Part shown: positions 28,097 to 33,817 of the stretch, in pieces | Numbering within the stretch: the stretch's first letter is position 1 | Layout: the number at the start of each line of letters is the position of its first letter | Origin: Calditrichota bacterium | Lineage (GTDB): Bacteria; Zhuqueibacterota; Zhuqueibacteria; Zhuqueibacterales; Geothermadaptataceae | Assembly (NCBI GenBank): GCA_008501765.1 | Contig: QQUE01000012.1 | Location: forward strand, 62,001 to 126,000 | Direction: 5' to 3' | DNA length: 64,000 nucleotides | Translations under genes and position numbers: made by a program | Notes under the pieces: generated by a model | Seen by the model: the letters and a program-made list of their open reading frames with translations, nothing else | What the model was told of the DNA's origin: nothing | Database searches by the model: none

Positions 28097-29581
28097 TTAA
28101 CCGGGAAACGGGTGCGCACTAACGACGGCCAATTTTAAAACTTCCGTCAATTCTTCAAAACTGACGCCATCATCCGGATAGCTGGCCATGTTCAAATGAA
28201 TATCGAGATCGTATTCCAGCCGGGAGAGCGACTTCAACAGGCGGTTTGCGAGAATCCTGGCCATCCGGTACGGCGTTTCCGGCAGCGCAATGCGCAGCTC
28301 ATTTGGCGAGGCAATGGTGATCAAATCGTGCTGGCGCAATATTTCCCGTAGTTTGAAGATCATTTTTTCTAGTAATTCTTTGTAGGCGTCAAAATCCAGG
28401 TCTGTTGTCAAATCGCTTATTTTAAAATGAAAGGCTAAAATAGTGAGGCAATTTTCCGACTCACCGGCATCGTCAATGCATTTTTCGGCTTCCCGGCAAA
28501 AACTATCGCTATCAACAACATGTAATTTCTGCGATTTTATCAGCGCTTCGATATCGTTTTGCGCGAATTTCAGTTTAAGTGGGGGCCCCGGCAAGCTGGC
28601 TTTTTCAAACATATCCTGAATGAGTTTGTAGGAATAGATTTTCCGCACCGGTGCGGAAGCCATATCAAAAAGTTTGTTGCAATTCATACAGCGGCAATTG
28701 ACAATCGGTTCTGTAAATTGCCCCTTGCATTCGTTGCACACACACATGGCAGAGGTGCTTTCATCGTAATCCAGATTCTTGCGCTGTAGAAATTCCAGAC
28801 AATGAGGGCACCGCAGTCCTTTCTCCGTCCGGAATTTGTTTTCCAGGCTGCGATGATTGCAGCGGTCGCAGGTGAGCATTTTCATAGCATCAATATCAGC
28901 GGCATTGCATTGTGGGCAGATTTCCCGAAAATTTAAATCGTGATGGCCGCAATCGGGACACATGTGAATAGCATCATGAAATACCCGCTCCAGCGCACCT
29001 GCTTTTGCCATACTTTCAAGAATGTAAATTTCTCCGCCAACTTCTTCGGGGCGAAGAATTTGTGCTGCTTCGGGATATTCGTAGCCCAATTTTGCAATGC
29101 GGTGGACGCCGGGAACAAGCGTACGAATGCCATGCTCGTTCATAAATTTCAGCAATCTAACCTGGCTGGGCAAAGCCGCATCTTTCCCTGCCTGAATTTT
29201 CACATCGTAAAATGCGAGAATATTTTCCACATGTTTTCGCAGCTCATCCTCATCAAATGGTTTGGCCAAATAATCCATAACGCCAAGGCGTAATCCCATC
29301 AGACGATCGTCTTCAAGTTCATTTTTATTGGTTAAAACAATAACCGGGAGAAAGCGCCACTCTGAATTTTCCTTCACCTGTTCAAGGAAGCTGTAAGCTG
29401 TTGAATCTGACAATTGCGAGGAAAGTATTATCAGGTCTGGCACACCGCGTTCGAGCGCTATCTGCCCCTCGGCGGCATTTCTGGCCAATGTCACACAATA
29501 ATCACAATTTTCCAGTATTTTCTGTGTACGCGTTAAAAGCATTGTGTCATCGTCAATCAGCAGAATATTTTTTTGCGCCAT
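28097..29581 (-). CDS. Receiver-TackOD1-degenerate GGDEF regulator lacking the phosphoacceptor Asp
   Basis: 494 residues from the ATG at 29579-29581 (GAGGG upstream). The N-terminal receiver keeps the acidic cluster (Asp10-12), the switch Thr (VIVLTNK) and Lys (YLAKPFD). The phosphoacceptor position reads Ser (PDLIILSSQ, ~residue 54). The middle (~200-320) has repeated CxxC pairs (MCPDCGHHDLNFREICPQC, TCDRCNHRS, CPHCLEFL, CMNCNKLF) and matches the TackOD1 zinc-binding output domain. The C-terminal ~130 residues resemble a GGDEF fold but carry SPNEL where GGDEF should be, so cyclase activity is unlikely. It is the last gene of the signalling operon, 44 bases after the histidine kinase. Role: probably a protein-binding regulator. 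Confidence 0.82.
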   Translation of the reverse strand: MAQKNILLIDDDTMLLTRTQKILENCDYCVTLARNAAEGQIALERGVPDLIILSSQLSDSTAYSFLEQVKENSEWRFLPVIVLTNKNELEDDRLMGLRLGVMDYLAKPFDEDELRKHVENILAFYDVKIQAGKDAALPSQVRLLKFMNEHGIRTLVPGVHRIAKLGYEYPEAAQILRPEEVGGEIYILESMAKAGALERVFHDAIHMCPDCGHHDLNFREICPQCNAADIDAMKMLTCDRCNHRSLENKFRTEKGLRCPHCLEFLQRKNLDYDESTSAMCVCNECKGQFTEPIVNCRCMNCNKLFDMASAPVRKIYSYKLIQDMFEKASLPGPPLKLKFAQNDIEALIKSQKLHVVDSDSFCREAEKCIDDAGESENCLTILAFHFKISDLTTDLDFDAYKELLEKMIFKLREILRQHDLITIASPNELRIALPETPYRMARILANRLLKSLSRLEYDLDIHLNMASYPDDGVSFEELTEVLKLAVVSAHPFPG

Positions 29582-29625
29582 AAATCCCTCATTATTTCTT
29601 GACTGCAAATCAAGTTAAAATGTCG

Positions 29626-30735
29626 TCAGTGTGGCATCTTTTCGGAAGATGTCATGTCGACTTTTGTTTTTTCCCGGCGAGGATTCCTTGGAAGTTTAAA
29701 ACTTATTTTAAACCACTTTTTCGCTTCCGATTGTGCCCAAATGTTACCATCATGCGCTTTAATAATACATTTCGTATTAAAAAGTCCAAGTCCTGTACCA
29801 CGAGGTAAATTGGGGTCTTTGTTGGCACCTTGAGAAAATTTGTCAAAAATAGTTTCGATTCTCTTTTTCGAAATCCCACAACCTGTATTTTTGATGGAAA
29901 ATAAATACCCATCCTCTAATTCTTCCACTTCGTAGGAAATTGTGGAATGGGGTTTCCCGTATTTTACCGCATTGCTGAAAACATTCGTAAAAACCACTTT
30001 CAGCAAATCCAGATCGCCAACTAATCCCATATGTTCTTTTGTTGCAGCCGATTTTTGATCGATTTTCATATCTTTCAGGCTCAACTGGCCTGTAAGTTCA
30101 GTCAATACAGGCTGTAACAGATCTTTATCCACATCGATTTCCTGCCAATGAATCAGCAATTCGCCATTTTCAATTTTGGAGAGATCGAGATAGTTTTTAA
30201 TCATATCAATCAAGTTTCGTGATACGCGCGTAATCACCTGAACACCGTTTAATTGCTCCACATTCAATTTGCCCAGATATCCTTCTTCGAGCAATTCGGC
30301 GAAGCCAAGAATGGAGACGAGCGGGCTGCGTAATTCATGGGAAACGAAACCCAGCATATTGAGATAATACGCATTGAGCTGTTTCAGATTTTCATTGTTA
30401 TCGCTCATCTTCTGATATAAATTATCGAGCTCCTGATTACGAGACTTTAATTGGAGCTGCATTTCTGCATTATCTCGCAAAACTTCGGCGAGTTGAGAAT
30501 ACATCAAGAGAGCCTTAACTTTTTCCCTCTCCATCAAATCTGAAATATTTGCCGGTTTTTCATCAAGCTGAGCCCCGGAAAGATCAGTCAGCCGCCTTTC
30601 ATATTCTGCGAGAAGAGAATCGAGCATTTTATCCGGGTCCTTTGTCTTTTGCAGCAGCTCAATACTTTTTTTGTGCAATTGACTCAACTCGGCAATCATG
30701 ATCTGCAATTCAGTTTGTTTATCTTTTTGATTCAT
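29626..30735 (-). CDS. Soluble sensor histidine kinase
   Basis: 369 residues with no membrane helix or PAS domain. An N-terminal helical, coiled-coil-like region (1-125) is followed by HisKA with His133 in FVSHELRSPL, then HATPase_c. The latter has N box TNVFSNAVKYG, G1 NTGCGISKKR, F box IFDKFSQG and G2 RGTGLGLF. All catalytic motifs look intact. The N-terminal helices probably receive a signal from a partner protein. It sits between the PilB-type ATPase and the atypical receiver protein on one transcript. Because neighbouring receivers lack the Asp, its phosphotransfer partner may be elsewhere. Confidence 0.92.
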   Translation of the reverse strand: MNQKDKQTELQIMIAELSQLHKKSIELLQKTKDPDKMLDSLLAEYERRLTDLSGAQLDEKPANISDLMEREKVKALLMYSQLAEVLRDNAEMQLQLKSRNQELDNLYQKMSDNNENLKQLNAYYLNMLGFVSHELRSPLVSILGFAELLEEGYLGKLNVEQLNGVQVITRVSRNLIDMIKNYLDLSKIENGELLIHWQEIDVDKDLLQPVLTELTGQLSLKDMKIDQKSAATKEHMGLVGDLDLLKVVFTNVFSNAVKYGKPHSTISYEVEELEDGYLFSIKNTGCGISKKRIETIFDKFSQGANKDPNLPRGTGLGLFNTKCIIKAHDGNIWAQSEAKKWFKISFKLPRNPRREKTKVDMTSSEKMPH

Positions 30736-30768: not shown

Positions 30769-32451
30769 TTAAGTTACGCGTAATACTTCTTCGATTGTTG
30801 TCGTACCATCGAAAGCTTTTCTCAAACCATCATGCCGTAATAAGGCCATGCCACTTTTGACGGCATATTTCCGGATATCCTCTTCCGGCGCCTTGTCCAG
30901 AACTTTCCGCCGGATATTCGAATCAAAAAGCAGAAGTTCATGTATACCGGTTCGACCGATATATCCGGTTTTTTTGCATTCGCGGCAGCCGGCACCGCGG
31001 TATAATTTGATAGAATTATCACGCAATTTATAATTATTCTCTTTTAGATGGCGCAATCCTTCCGTGTCTTCCACTTTGCAGTGCGGGCAGACCCTGCGGA
31101 CGAGCCGTTGCGCCAAAATTCCGATTACCGAAGAAGCAAGCAAAAATGGCTCAACTTCCATATCCATCAGACGAAAAATACCGCTCACCGCATCATTGGT
31201 GTGCAATGTTGATAAAACCAAATGCCCCGTCATCGCGCTGCGAATGGCAATATCAGCAGTTTCCGAATCGCGAATTTCCCCGACCATTATTACATCGGGG
31301 TCCTGCCGCAAGATGGAGCGCAAGGCACCGGCAAAAGTCAATCCCACCTTAAAATTAACCTGAACCTGATTGATCAACGGAAATTTATATTCAACCGGGT
31401 TCTCGATGGTGACGATGTTTTTATGAATTGAATTGATCGTATTGAGTACCGAATAAAGCGTTGTGGTTTTGCCGCTGCCGGTCGGGCCGGTTATCAGAAT
31501 TATTCCTTCCGGTTTCCGAATCGCTTTATCCCAGAGTTGCAAGGTGCGTGGTTGAAATCCGAGATCAGCTAATTTCAACTCGGCATTTCGAGGATCGAGA
31601 ATTCGCAACACAACTTTTTCGCCGTGCACAGTCGGCAAAATCGAAACCCGTAAATCCAGCTCATCGCGCACAATTTTCACTCTGAACCGGCCATCCTGCG
31701 GCACTCTTTTTTCTGAGACATCGAGTTCAGCGAGCACTTTTATGCGCGAGACCACCATCGGCGCAATTTTCTTCGGCGGTGTTGAAAATGGATGTAAAAC
31801 ACCGTCGATGCGATAGCGAATGCGAAACTCTTTTTCTTCCATTTCCATGTGAATATCGCTGGCTTTTTCCCGGATCGCCTGCGAAATTATTACGTTGACA
31901 AAGTTGATGATGGACGCTTCATCGGTGGCGTCAAGATTTGTTTCGTTGTCGGTATCCTCATTCAGCTCAACCACACTGTCTTCTTTAAAACTCGTCACCA
32001 TGCGGTCAAGATAGGCGGCCATGCTATAATATTTTTTGATCGCCGTTTCGATATCCTTTTCAGCAGCCAGCACTTCCTGGATATTTAATTTGGTGTGGTA
32101 GCGGACTGCATCCATCGCCTTCAGATCGAGCGGGTCGGACATCGCCAGCGTGAGCATGTCATCGACGAGGAAAAGCGGGATAATATTGTAGCGTTGCGCC
32201 AGTTCCATCGGGATTGACTTAACGATCGCCGGATCAATACTGTAAGCCCCAATTTTTACAACCGGTAAATCAAATTTTTCGCTGAGTGCATCCAGTAAAA
32301 AAGATTCGGTGATCCAGCCCTGCTTGATCATTATTCGTCCGAATTGATCCCCGGTGCGCTTTTGAATTTCCAGCGCGCTTTCGATCTGCTGGTCTGTGAT
32401 CAGGCCTCTGCTCTGGAGAATTTCTCCCAATTTTCGATAGCGGTTATTCAT
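30769..32451 (-). CDS. PilB/GspE-family secretion/pilus assembly ATPase
   Basis: 560 residues from ATG 32449-32451. A GTG at 32472 that overlaps the previous gene is an alternative. The N-terminal T2SSE_N/MshEN domain (LGEILQSRGLITDQQIESAL) can bind cyclic di-GMP in relatives. The ATPase core has the Asp box region (SDIHMEMEEKEFRIRYRIDG), Walker A GPTGSGKTTT, Walker B PDVIMVGEIRDSETA and a His box around STLHTNDA. A tetracysteine zinc motif follows (CPHC, then CREC). The protein powers type IV pilus extension or type II secretion. No other pilus or secretion gene is adjacent. Instead it lies in a signalling operon. Confidence 0.93.
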   Translation of the reverse strand: MNNRYRKLGEILQSRGLITDQQIESALEIQKRTGDQFGRIMIKQGWITESFLLDALSEKFDLPVVKIGAYSIDPAIVKSIPMELAQRYNIIPLFLVDDMLTLAMSDPLDLKAMDAVRYHTKLNIQEVLAAEKDIETAIKKYYSMAAYLDRMVTSFKEDSVVELNEDTDNETNLDATDEASIINFVNVIISQAIREKASDIHMEMEEKEFRIRYRIDGVLHPFSTPPKKIAPMVVSRIKVLAELDVSEKRVPQDGRFRVKIVRDELDLRVSILPTVHGEKVVLRILDPRNAELKLADLGFQPRTLQLWDKAIRKPEGIILITGPTGSGKTTTLYSVLNTINSIHKNIVTIENPVEYKFPLINQVQVNFKVGLTFAGALRSILRQDPDVIMVGEIRDSETADIAIRSAMTGHLVLSTLHTNDAVSGIFRLMDMEVEPFLLASSVIGILAQRLVRRVCPHCKVEDTEGLRHLKENNYKLRDNSIKLYRGAGCRECKKTGYIGRTGIHELLLFDSNIRRKVLDKAPEEDIRKYAVKSGMALLRHDGLRKAFDGTTTIEEVLRVT

Positions 32452-32456
32452 CGATT

Positions 32457-32930
32457 TTAATGGAGCTCCCACCAGATATTTGAGTCCAAATCTTCGGGTG
32501 TGTCCTCACTAAGAGTGGGAATATGGCAATACGGCCAAACCTGCAGCGGGATTTGCAACAGGTCAAAATAATTTTGCATCCGGCGTAAATTCAGTTCCAA
32601 TTTTAAAGGCGAGGGGATGAAACCGGCGATGCCGGCGGCATAGGCATCTTGCAACTCCTCGGGATCAATATCATCGCACAACAATAAAATTGGCGGCAAA
32701 TTTTCTGAATCGCCACGCTCCTTAAAATCGCTAACCAGTGGCCCAATAAACCGAATAGAATCAGTTAAGCAGAGCAGCGGTGAATCGAACCTTGTTTTAG
32801 CCTCAATCAGATAATCTGCAACGTTTTTATAAACCAGTATTTCCGCACCAACGGCAGCGCGGTAAAAAATTTGTTTGGCCGAAAAAATTTCTTCATCCGA
32901 ACGTAAAAACAGAATAATTTGATTTCTCAA
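32457..32930 (-). CDS. Degenerate receiver-like protein
   Basis: 157 residues starting at TTG (32928-32930) with AAGGA upstream. No in-frame ATG occurs before the end of the domain. The fold pattern is that of a CheY-like domain: alternating strands IILFLRS, LLCLTDS, PILLLCDD, GIAGFIPSPLK. The acidic pair after strand 1 is gone, and the phosphoacceptor position reads Thr with an Asp next to it. A family-like C-terminal LRRMQNYFDLL helix is present. It is likely a non-phosphorylated protein-protein adaptor for the PilB-type ATPase encoded 5 bases downstream. Remote receiver homology is inferred. Confidence 0.6.
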   Translation of the reverse strand: MRNQIILFLRSDEEIFSAKQIFYRAAVGAEILVYKNVADYLIEAKTRFDSPLLCLTDSIRFIGPLVSDFKERGDSENLPPILLLCDDIDPEELQDAYAAGIAGFIPSPLKLELNLRRMQNYFDLLQIPLQVWPYCHIPTLSEDTPEDLDSNIWWELH

Positions 32931-32950: not shown

Positions 32951-33817
32951 TCAGGCAACAGATTGAAAAAAAGCAATTGCCGTAGTGAAATTTCGTTTAA
33001 CTTCCTGCATAATATCCGTATAACTATCGGCTCCCAATCCCAATTCACTTTTGACGAGTGAATCAATCGGTGGAACCAGGCTATCCCCCGCAAATCCAAG
33101 TCCTTCTTCGCGAACAAGGGCATCGGCAAGGTGAACAATGGTTACCAGTTTCTGATCGACTTCACTCATCTCCGGGGCATGGTGGTGGCGCAAAGCGTCT
33201 GTGAGGTGGGGGGGCAAATGCCATTTATCAACAAGCCAGCTGCCGATAAAAGCATGGGTTTCACCAATAATTTCACGTTCCGCATCAAACAGACACATGC
33301 CGCCGGCATCCGCCAGGGTCAGCGCTGAGAGAAAATCATCATGCGTGTACCTGTCAAAGACAACTTTACCGATATCATGAATCAGCCCGGCAATAAAAGC
33401 ATCTTCTTTTTTTGAATAATTAATTCGCGTCGCAATCACATTCGCTGTCATGGCCGCAGCGATCGAATGCTCCCAAAGTTTTTCACGTGTATATTCGAAA
33501 TTTTTCGGGAAAGAAGAATCCGTGCTAAACTCATCAAAAACAGCAATAGTCAACGCGACGTTGCGGATTGCCGAAAATCCCATAACCACTGTGGCCTGTG
33601 TCAGTGTCGCAATTTGCCGCGGCATGCCATAAAAGGGAGAATTGACAAGTTTTAGCACCTTGACCATCAGCGCGGGGTCCGTTCCAATTATTCGCGCAAT
33701 GTCAGGCGCTGTACTTTCCGGATTATCAACTGCGCTCAGCAATCGCATAATTACTTCCGGCAGTGTGGGTGATTCAATTTTTCCGTCCAGTATTTCTTGC
33801 AACTGTGGGCTAATCAT
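32951..33817 (-). CDS. HDOD-domain signalling protein
   Basis: 288 residues covering one HDOD domain: LPEVIMRLLSAVDNPESTAPDIARII, DPALMVKVLKLVNSPFYG, then AGLIHDIGKVVFD, where an HD pair is retained. HDOD proteins regulate motility, c-di-GMP and stress pathways through protein contacts, and most lack hydrolase activity. It is the first gene of the five-gene operon, followed 20 bases later by the degenerate receiver gene. AAAGGA lies directly before the ATG. Confidence 0.9.
   Translation of the reverse strand: MISPQLQEILDGKIESPTLPEVIMRLLSAVDNPESTAPDIARIIGTDPALMVKVLKLVNSPFYGMPRQIATLTQATVVMGFSAIRNVALTIAVFDEFSTDSSFPKNFEYTREKLWEHSIAAAMTANVIATRINYSKKEDAFIAGLIHDIGKVVFDRYTHDDFLSALTLADAGGMCLFDAEREIIGETHAFIGSWLVDKWHLPPHLTDALRHHHAPEMSEVDQKLVTIVHLADALVREEGLGFAGDSLVPPIDSLVKSELGLGADSYTDIMQEVKRNFTTAIAFFQSVA

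Follow-up and report, generated by a model that had tools for sequence, protein, structure and literature searches.

What is left for a response-regulator-like protein to do when the residue expected to accept a phosphoryl group and the motif expected for cyclase activity have both gone, and a histidine kinase with intact catalytic motifs is still encoded beside it? The question is raised by a 494-aa protein with the layout REC(Ser)-TackOD1-GGDEF-like, encoded on the minus strand at 28097..29581 of the window (the whole analysed stretch of 64,000 nucleotides). The frame and extent proposed in the initial annotation are borne out, the ATG start being at 29581 and the stop codon ending at 28097; an in-frame TTG at 29608 would lengthen the product by nine residues, but the starts of relatives, at an equivalent MAQ, MAK or MAN, align with the ATG instead. 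An AlphaFold2 model of the protein has a mean pLDDT of 83.6 and a pTM of 0.40, and Pfam matches to DUF3920 and DUF6137 were set aside as below their cut-offs. The explanation preferred here, at a rough probability of 0.45, is that the protein would serve as a phosphorylation-independent c-di-GMP effector acting on a type IV pilus machine, with binding, partner and direction of control each predicted from the sequence and its setting.

A receiver that has lost its aspartate

The receiver domain (residues 6-118; 29228..29566, minus strand) matches Response_reg (PF00072) at 62.9 bits against a cut-off of 30.2, and its fold is matched, e.g. by 3crn_A, with Z 22.1, rmsd 1.4 and 129 residues aligned. 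Alignment with relatives puts Ser54 of the PDLIILS motif (codon TCC, 29420..29422, minus strand) at the phosphoacceptor position, with D10/D11, T84, Y104 and K107 all kept, so that the initial annotation was right about the substitution and about the retained acidic pocket, Thr and Lys. With the fold and the PF00072 match in place, and the Asp alone missing from the five active-site residues, this is a receiver of the aspartate-less class. In that class Glu (26%) and Ser (15%) are reported to be the first and third commonest replacements, and GGDEF outputs to be enriched (PMC4395418). The likeness to such members as FrzS, RitR and ChxR is that of a receiver fold without a phosphoacceptor; unlike most of them, the window's receiver keeps both acidic residues, Thr, Tyr and Lys (the second acidic position is given as acidic in only 29% of the aspartate-less set; PMC4395418), and an intact kinase gene adjoins its own. 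Within the genome the state is unusual: among 133 receivers examined, from 134 matches with one left out for a score below the Pfam cut-off, Asp is present in 124 and absent from nine, and Ser is found in three including this one. A chance peculiarity of a single receiver is nevertheless set aside, the class being a known one. As a separate observation, a second Ser-bearing match in the genome (L183, G000:C7:22945-23247) is followed immediately by a GGDEF domain of GSDEF type that has RxxD (L193, G000:C7:23350-23808), the two lying in one open frame of 572 aa.

Sequencing error or a local variant is excluded as the source of Ser54 by the sister species, G001, which also has Ser there, from a different synonymous codon (TCA rather than TCC). 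(In G002, the third member of the genus analysed and 67% complete, TackOD1 was not matched.) The orthologues from the taxonomic family's other genera (G004, G005 and G006) carry Asp, so that Ser is a derived state of two species and not an error; the thought that it might be fixed among orthologues holds for the sister species and fails for these three. The tree pairs the two Ser proteins with full support, and the group in which they nest, also fully supported, has Asp in its three remaining members. The simplest reading of the sequences is that one Asp to Ser change preceded the split of the two species, the receiver having probably been under selection since. Between them pS for the receiver is 0.80 and pN 0.12, which indicates purifying selection since the loss of Asp and supports the preferred explanation; dN/dS is not given because at a pS of 0.80 synonymous sites are saturated and dS is not computable. 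Across the domains pS is 0.68-0.80, with pN lowest in TackOD1 (0.07; 87% identity), intermediate in the receiver (0.12; 81%) and highest in the GGDEF-like domain (0.23; 64%). That the last, on which c-di-GMP binding would depend, is the fastest-changing of the three counts against the preferred explanation.

A search of 82 genomes of the phylum gave 26 TackOD1 proteins from the 23 with matches over the cut-off; matches below it, two in G032 and one in G006, were not counted. Nine of the 26 are paralogues that form a clade of their own, in which the N-terminal part has ceased to be a plain receiver. In the other 17, the receiver-type proteins, the phosphoacceptor position is Asp in seven (G004, G005, G006, G022, the second copy of G038, G058 and G060), Glu in eight (G016, G021, G026, the first copy of G038, and G064-G067) and Ser in two, the window's protein and that of G001. 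One regulator frame, in G058 (L050, G058:C330), is broken by an internal TGA into pieces of 275 and 193 aa. The alignment termed A2 holds 22 of the 26 (15 of 17 receiver-type, without L036 and L037, and seven of nine paralogues, without those of G031 and G037); PF00072 is matched by 15 of these 22, which equals the number of receiver-type rows, the agreement being one of counts and not of named members. Lys107 is invariant in all 15 aligned receivers. A tree of 15 proteins, from which L036 and L037 were omitted as split or cut, needs only two changes among Asp, Glu and Ser, with a weak Glu grouping (47/55), so that repeated independent loss of Asp is unsupported. A scan of the genome collection gave matches limited to the sister species and one receiver-only match, and the kinship described here is accordingly that within the phylum.

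The retention of Ser54 in both species would also suit a conventional switch thrown by another covalent mark, e.g. a Ser/Thr kinase phosphorylating Ser54 or a residue nearby, and Ser/Thr phosphorylation has been reported for the atypical regulator GlnR (PMC12632262). With Glu or Asp at position 54 in the other 15 receiver-type proteins, and no Ser/Thr kinase encoded nearby among the genes tested, such a switch is hardly to be expected.

The zinc domain and the GGDEF-like end

The middle of the protein (residues 140-320; 28622..29164, minus strand) matches TackOD1 (PF18551) at 126.5 bits against a cut-off of 32. Of its metal motifs, described as five CxxC and one HxxC, all six pairs are present as CxxC, in keeping with the initial claim that the Cys pairs are intact. 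Among the 22 proteins aligned, only those of the two Ser species have CxxC at the HxxC pair (28859-28870, residues 238-241), a change by which a possible metal ligand would be kept. (In several distant relatives the whole middle ribbon is missing from the alignment.) On being named, TackOD1 was described as obscure in function (PMC5847659), and a full-text search of a library of open-access papers found the name in no other paper. Taken alone the domain has no match to a solved fold at a Foldseek E of 0.001 or less; a PDB profile search gave short matches of zinc-ribbon type, the best at 1.2e-4, and VIA-align of the model reached a best Z of 6.1, a level that shows neither kinship nor its absence.

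The order of elements in the TackOD1 model (28622-29164) is helices, strand, Cys pairs and closing strand, and it resembles a winged helix with zinc ribbons in place of the wing, at a best Z of only 6. VIA-align pairs the model with winged helices (the Zalpha domain 1qbj_C at Z 6.0, rmsd 2.5 and 61 residues aligned; PefR; Fur), and from this a transcription regulator could be imagined in which the helical part binds DNA and controls the pilus operon. The proposal is improbable: a Z of about 6 is also reached by models with no clear match, and the third helix, with two Glu and one Lys, seems unlike a typical recognition helix.

The C-terminal domain (residues 346-494; 28100..28546, minus strand), delimited by profile, model and alignment, is to judge from these a GGDEF domain by descent. 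Pfam GGDEF is not recognised in the window's protein at E values up to 1; PF00990 is matched by seven of the 22 A2 members (best 9e-12), and a profile of 11 members (A3) matches diguanylate cyclases in the PDB, the best at 7.7e-14. Over the full length, Foldseek ranks PleD, WspR and DgcR first by E-value, with c-di-GMP bound in several of those structures, and the match is one of domain to domain only because the full-length TM is about 0.25 and rmsd mostly above 15. PleD, WspR and DgcR are active cyclases with a phosphorylatable receiver, unlike the protein at issue. Here SPNEL (28295..28309, minus strand) aligns with GG(D/E)EF, as initially noted, and an active diguanylate cyclase is thereby excluded. 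None of the 22 A2 members has the motif, not even those with Asp, from which it follows that its loss is old and untied to the Ser; coupling of the two changes is excluded.

What has been kept is RxxD, the inhibitory-type or I-site motif, present as RQHD (R416 and D419; 28325..28336, minus strand) five residues ahead of the SPNEL loop. In A2 no other position from residue 335 onwards is as well conserved as D419, which 20 of the 22 rows share; R416, present in 18, comes second alongside T436 and L482. (These counts come from A2 since A3, drawn from 11 of the 15 receiver-type rows, leaves out the four rows without the RxxD Arg, and its invariant R and D are thus no evidence for a site.) Position 447 is R in 14 and K in four of the 22; the Arg447 codon (28241..28243, minus strand), assigned by position, encodes what we take to be a candidate for a further I-site Arg (R402 in P. 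aeruginosa PelD), near the place expected from PleD numbering, PelD itself being unaligned. RxxD is present in seven of the nine GGDEF matches of the genome itself, the seven being those with GG or GS(D/E)EF, and the site was therefore probably inherited and then kept after loss of the catalytic loop. Persistence of this site where the catalytic motif is gone throughout supports the preferred explanation, all the more as degenerate GGDEF domains with RxxD are known to bind c-di-GMP. In Bacillus cereus PelD R363, D366 and R395 are each reported to be needed for binding (PMC7112168), and Bdellovibrio CdgA is described as an inactive GGDEF receptor with a GVNEF motif (PMC3271064). The protein discussed here is like both in having lost the GGDEF motif and retained RxxD, its binding being a prediction from sequence; it is unlike them in its partner domains (GAF in PelD), and the comparison is by description, neither having been aligned with it.

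The Arg of RxxD is lost in four of the 22 rows (L044, L045, L064 and L067) and the Asp also in L044 and L045, so that not every member of the family can be expected to bind c-di-GMP. This, and the consideration that RxxD may persist for structural reasons, weighs against the preferred explanation and for a narrowed form of the initial view, namely that the protein is a zinc-stabilised scaffold for protein-protein contacts whose GGDEF-like domain is structural only and binds no nucleotide. TackOD1 with its six Cys pairs is the best-kept domain between the two species, and its lack of a solved-fold counterpart is also pertinent. It is harder to see on that view why D419 should be the most conserved residue of the domain and R416 tied for second after the catalytic motif had gone from all 22, and features of the neighbouring genes considered below point the same way; the scaffold is judged unlikely.

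A kinase, a motor-type ATPase and export genes

Upstream of the regulator on the same strand, with 20-44 bases between neighbouring genes or a short overlap of them, a presumed operon begins with an HDOD protein (32951..33817, minus strand; PF08668 at 197 bits), followed by a decayed stand-alone receiver, REC1 (32457..32930, minus strand), recognised by alignment with the REC1 of relatives, by a PilB/GspE-type ATPase (30769..32472, minus strand; T2SSE at 467 bits) and by the histidine kinase HK2 (29626..30735, minus strand). The ATPase matches PilB best, at 643.8 bits against an NCBIfam cut-off of 675.65, with GspE at 613.8 against 630.25; as both scores are below their cut-offs, the ATPase may belong to a pilus or to type II secretion, and this counts against the preferred explanation. 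Its N-terminus is of the MshEN type, predicted to bind c-di-GMP (NF053729 at 61.4 bits, cut-off 38), and a c-di-GMP motif in the adjoining ATPase is one of the features that speak against a nucleotide-free scaffold. At L074 (G000:C11:199000-213000) there is a second cluster of HDOD, PilB-type and receiver genes, with an MshEN-type protein, an NtrC-type regulator and a GspF/PilC-type gene, and both its stand-alone receivers keep Asp.

Across the phylum, genes of pilus or secretion type adjoin ten of the 17 receiver-type loci. A PilB/GspE-type ATPase is found at all five loci of the window's taxonomic family; in G026 there is an adjoining secretin, about equal as GspD and PilQ and slightly better as GspD; PilM/PilN-like and PilQ-like genes adjoin in G064 and have homologues in G065, and G066 and G067 have homologues of the G064 PilM/PilN-like gene (a PilN profile match in G066 is below cut-off). 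No pilus gene was recognised at the other seven, part of whose genes were tested. Downstream of the TackOD1 paralogues a GT2-OEP-HlyD operon, of polysaccharide-export type, is present at six of six loci examined (L051-L056, of nine), and the first G038 copy precedes a GT2 gene and a TolC-like OEP; the calls were made by Pfam for L051 and L048 and by BLAST for the other loci. At three of the six (L052, L053 and L055) a PilB/GspE-type ATPase, 36-39% identical to that of the window, adjoins the TackOD1 gene on the opposite strand. These settings support the preferred explanation, with the seven loci lacking a recognised pilus gene and the G026 secretin on the other side of the account. Control by c-di-GMP is common among GT2 export operons, which is a further point against a scaffold.

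The phosphorelay itself seems to have been dismantled in pieces. G005 has, in order, HDOD, a PAS/GAF kinase (HK1), a receiver with Asp, the ATPase, HK2 and the regulator; in G004 the order is the same with HK1 already missing, as in the window. The REC1 of the window keeps neither the acidic pair nor Asp, Thr or Lys and gives no Pfam match, its homologues in G005 and G004 keeping Asp; in G001 it is gone save for a likely C-terminal scar (IWWELH, then a stop) before the ATPase gene; and in the genus the regulator's receiver, REC2, has exchanged Asp for Ser. That the protein is itself on its way out, as a relic of a relay breaking down in the genus, would accommodate the state of REC1 and REC2 and the absence of HK1, and is very improbable given 494 codons open in both species with synonymous sites near saturation and low pN in every domain (0.07-0.23), and given that HK2 is intact.

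HK2 is a HisKA-HATPase kinase with no other domain over the Pfam cut-off. It lies directly upstream of 14 of the 17 regulators, the exceptions being G022, G060 and the first G038 copy, and nine of those 14 regulators lack Asp (Ser in two, Glu in seven, Asp in five). The H-box is kept in 14 of 14, and the N-box Asn and G-box Gly are invariant in two alignments (ten and nine rows, together covering all 14); a motif pattern missed the N-box in two and the G-box in two of the four most distant kinases, in which the alignments show the residues kept. (The N-terminal third of HK2, with about 100 conserved residues and no Pfam match over cut-off, is a possible new sensor.) An intact HK2 beside Asp-less regulators is the fact least explained, and the preferred explanation alone does not account for it.

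One way to account for it is to reverse the direction of signalling: the Asp-less receiver would be a pseudo-substrate holding HK2 off (or on), c-di-GMP at the GGDEF-like domain would release it, and HK2 would then phosphorylate a receiver encoded elsewhere. Retention of HK2 and of its H-, N- and G-box residues favours this, and there is precedent in ShkA, where a pseudo-receiver is reported to inhibit HisKA until c-di-GMP binds (PMC12632262), although in ShkA the binding is at the pseudo-receiver itself. Between the two Ser species the kinase- or dimer-facing segments (alpha1 and alpha4-beta5-alpha5) are better kept, at 44 of 50 positions against 45 of 63 for residues 25-87 (p 0.04, uncorrected); the contrast is weak and falls short of significance when Asp-bearing relatives are the comparison (p 0.45 and 0.34), for which reason it amounts to no more than a hint. 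No free receiver was identified as a partner, and reversal as such is distinctly unlikely. A broader proposal, also of low probability, is of a turned-round two-component pair in which the regulator would sense c-di-GMP through its dead GGDEF domain and control both kinase and pilus motor, with TackOD1 as a zinc-built lever and the old phosphorelay removed piecewise around a preserved core.

The preferred explanation in relation to known systems

In mechanistic terms the effector proposed at the outset would bind c-di-GMP at the I-site (R416, D419 and probably R447) of its catalytically dead GGDEF domain, and binding would rearrange receiver, TackOD1 and GGDEF-like domains such that contact with the pilus assembly apparatus is altered. 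The contact would most likely be with the PilB-type motor encoded two genes upstream, whose MshEN domain should itself sense c-di-GMP. The Ser receiver would be a docking or dimerisation module that meets the neighbouring kinase with no uptake of a phosphoryl group at the standard site, and the retention of HK2 would be accounted for if the two dock with no phosphotransfer or if the regulator controls the kinase in the manner of ShkA. Relative to this, the initial interpretation of a binding platform was sound on the losses and the Cys pairs, and overlooked the retained RxxD, the adjacent PilB-type ATPase, the intact kinase and the loss of the GGDEF motif from all members aligned, which is not linked to the Ser.

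The nearest functional counterpart is FimX of Pseudomonas and Xanthomonas, described as having a receiver without a phosphosite and a cyclase-inactive GGDEF, and as a c-di-GMP receptor acting on PilB (PMC8389850, PMC5595344). The receiver without Asp and the non-catalytic GGDEF are shared, the PilB link being here one of gene adjacency only. FimX is described as carrying PAS and EAL domains, EAL being the part that binds c-di-GMP; the window's protein, in which Pfam matches up to E 1 include neither, has TackOD1 and a retained GGDEF I-site instead, and with EAL and PAS absent it is not a FimX. On the best reading of the comparisons it may work like FimX or PelD and is to be filed as neither. 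A different likeness is to archaeal REC-TackOD1 proteins (arCOG06883), for which TackOD1, REC-TackOD1 and REC-wHTH-TackOD1 architectures are reported (PMC5847659), with TackOD1 proteins also reported in thaumarchaeal type IV pilus loci (PMC4858521, PMC5847659). The zinc domain is the same, and a setting of pilus type is shared; the architectures as listed there lack a GGDEF-like end.

Aspartate-less receivers, dead GGDEF receptors and TackOD1 are thus each known in kind. No example of the three combined, of such a combination in pilus- and polysaccharide-type loci throughout a phylum, or of a stepwise loss of phosphorylation with the kinase kept came up in the open-access literature searched, as far as the texts available there extend. 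The association of TackOD1 with a dead GGDEF domain bearing RxxD, in loci of pilus and polysaccharide-export type, provides TackOD1 with a role that can be tested and puts forward a further candidate class of c-di-GMP effectors. The series in which REC1 is intact, decayed or deleted, and REC2 passes from Asp to Ser with the kinase kept, is in effect a natural experiment in which phosphorylation has been lost and the genes kept.
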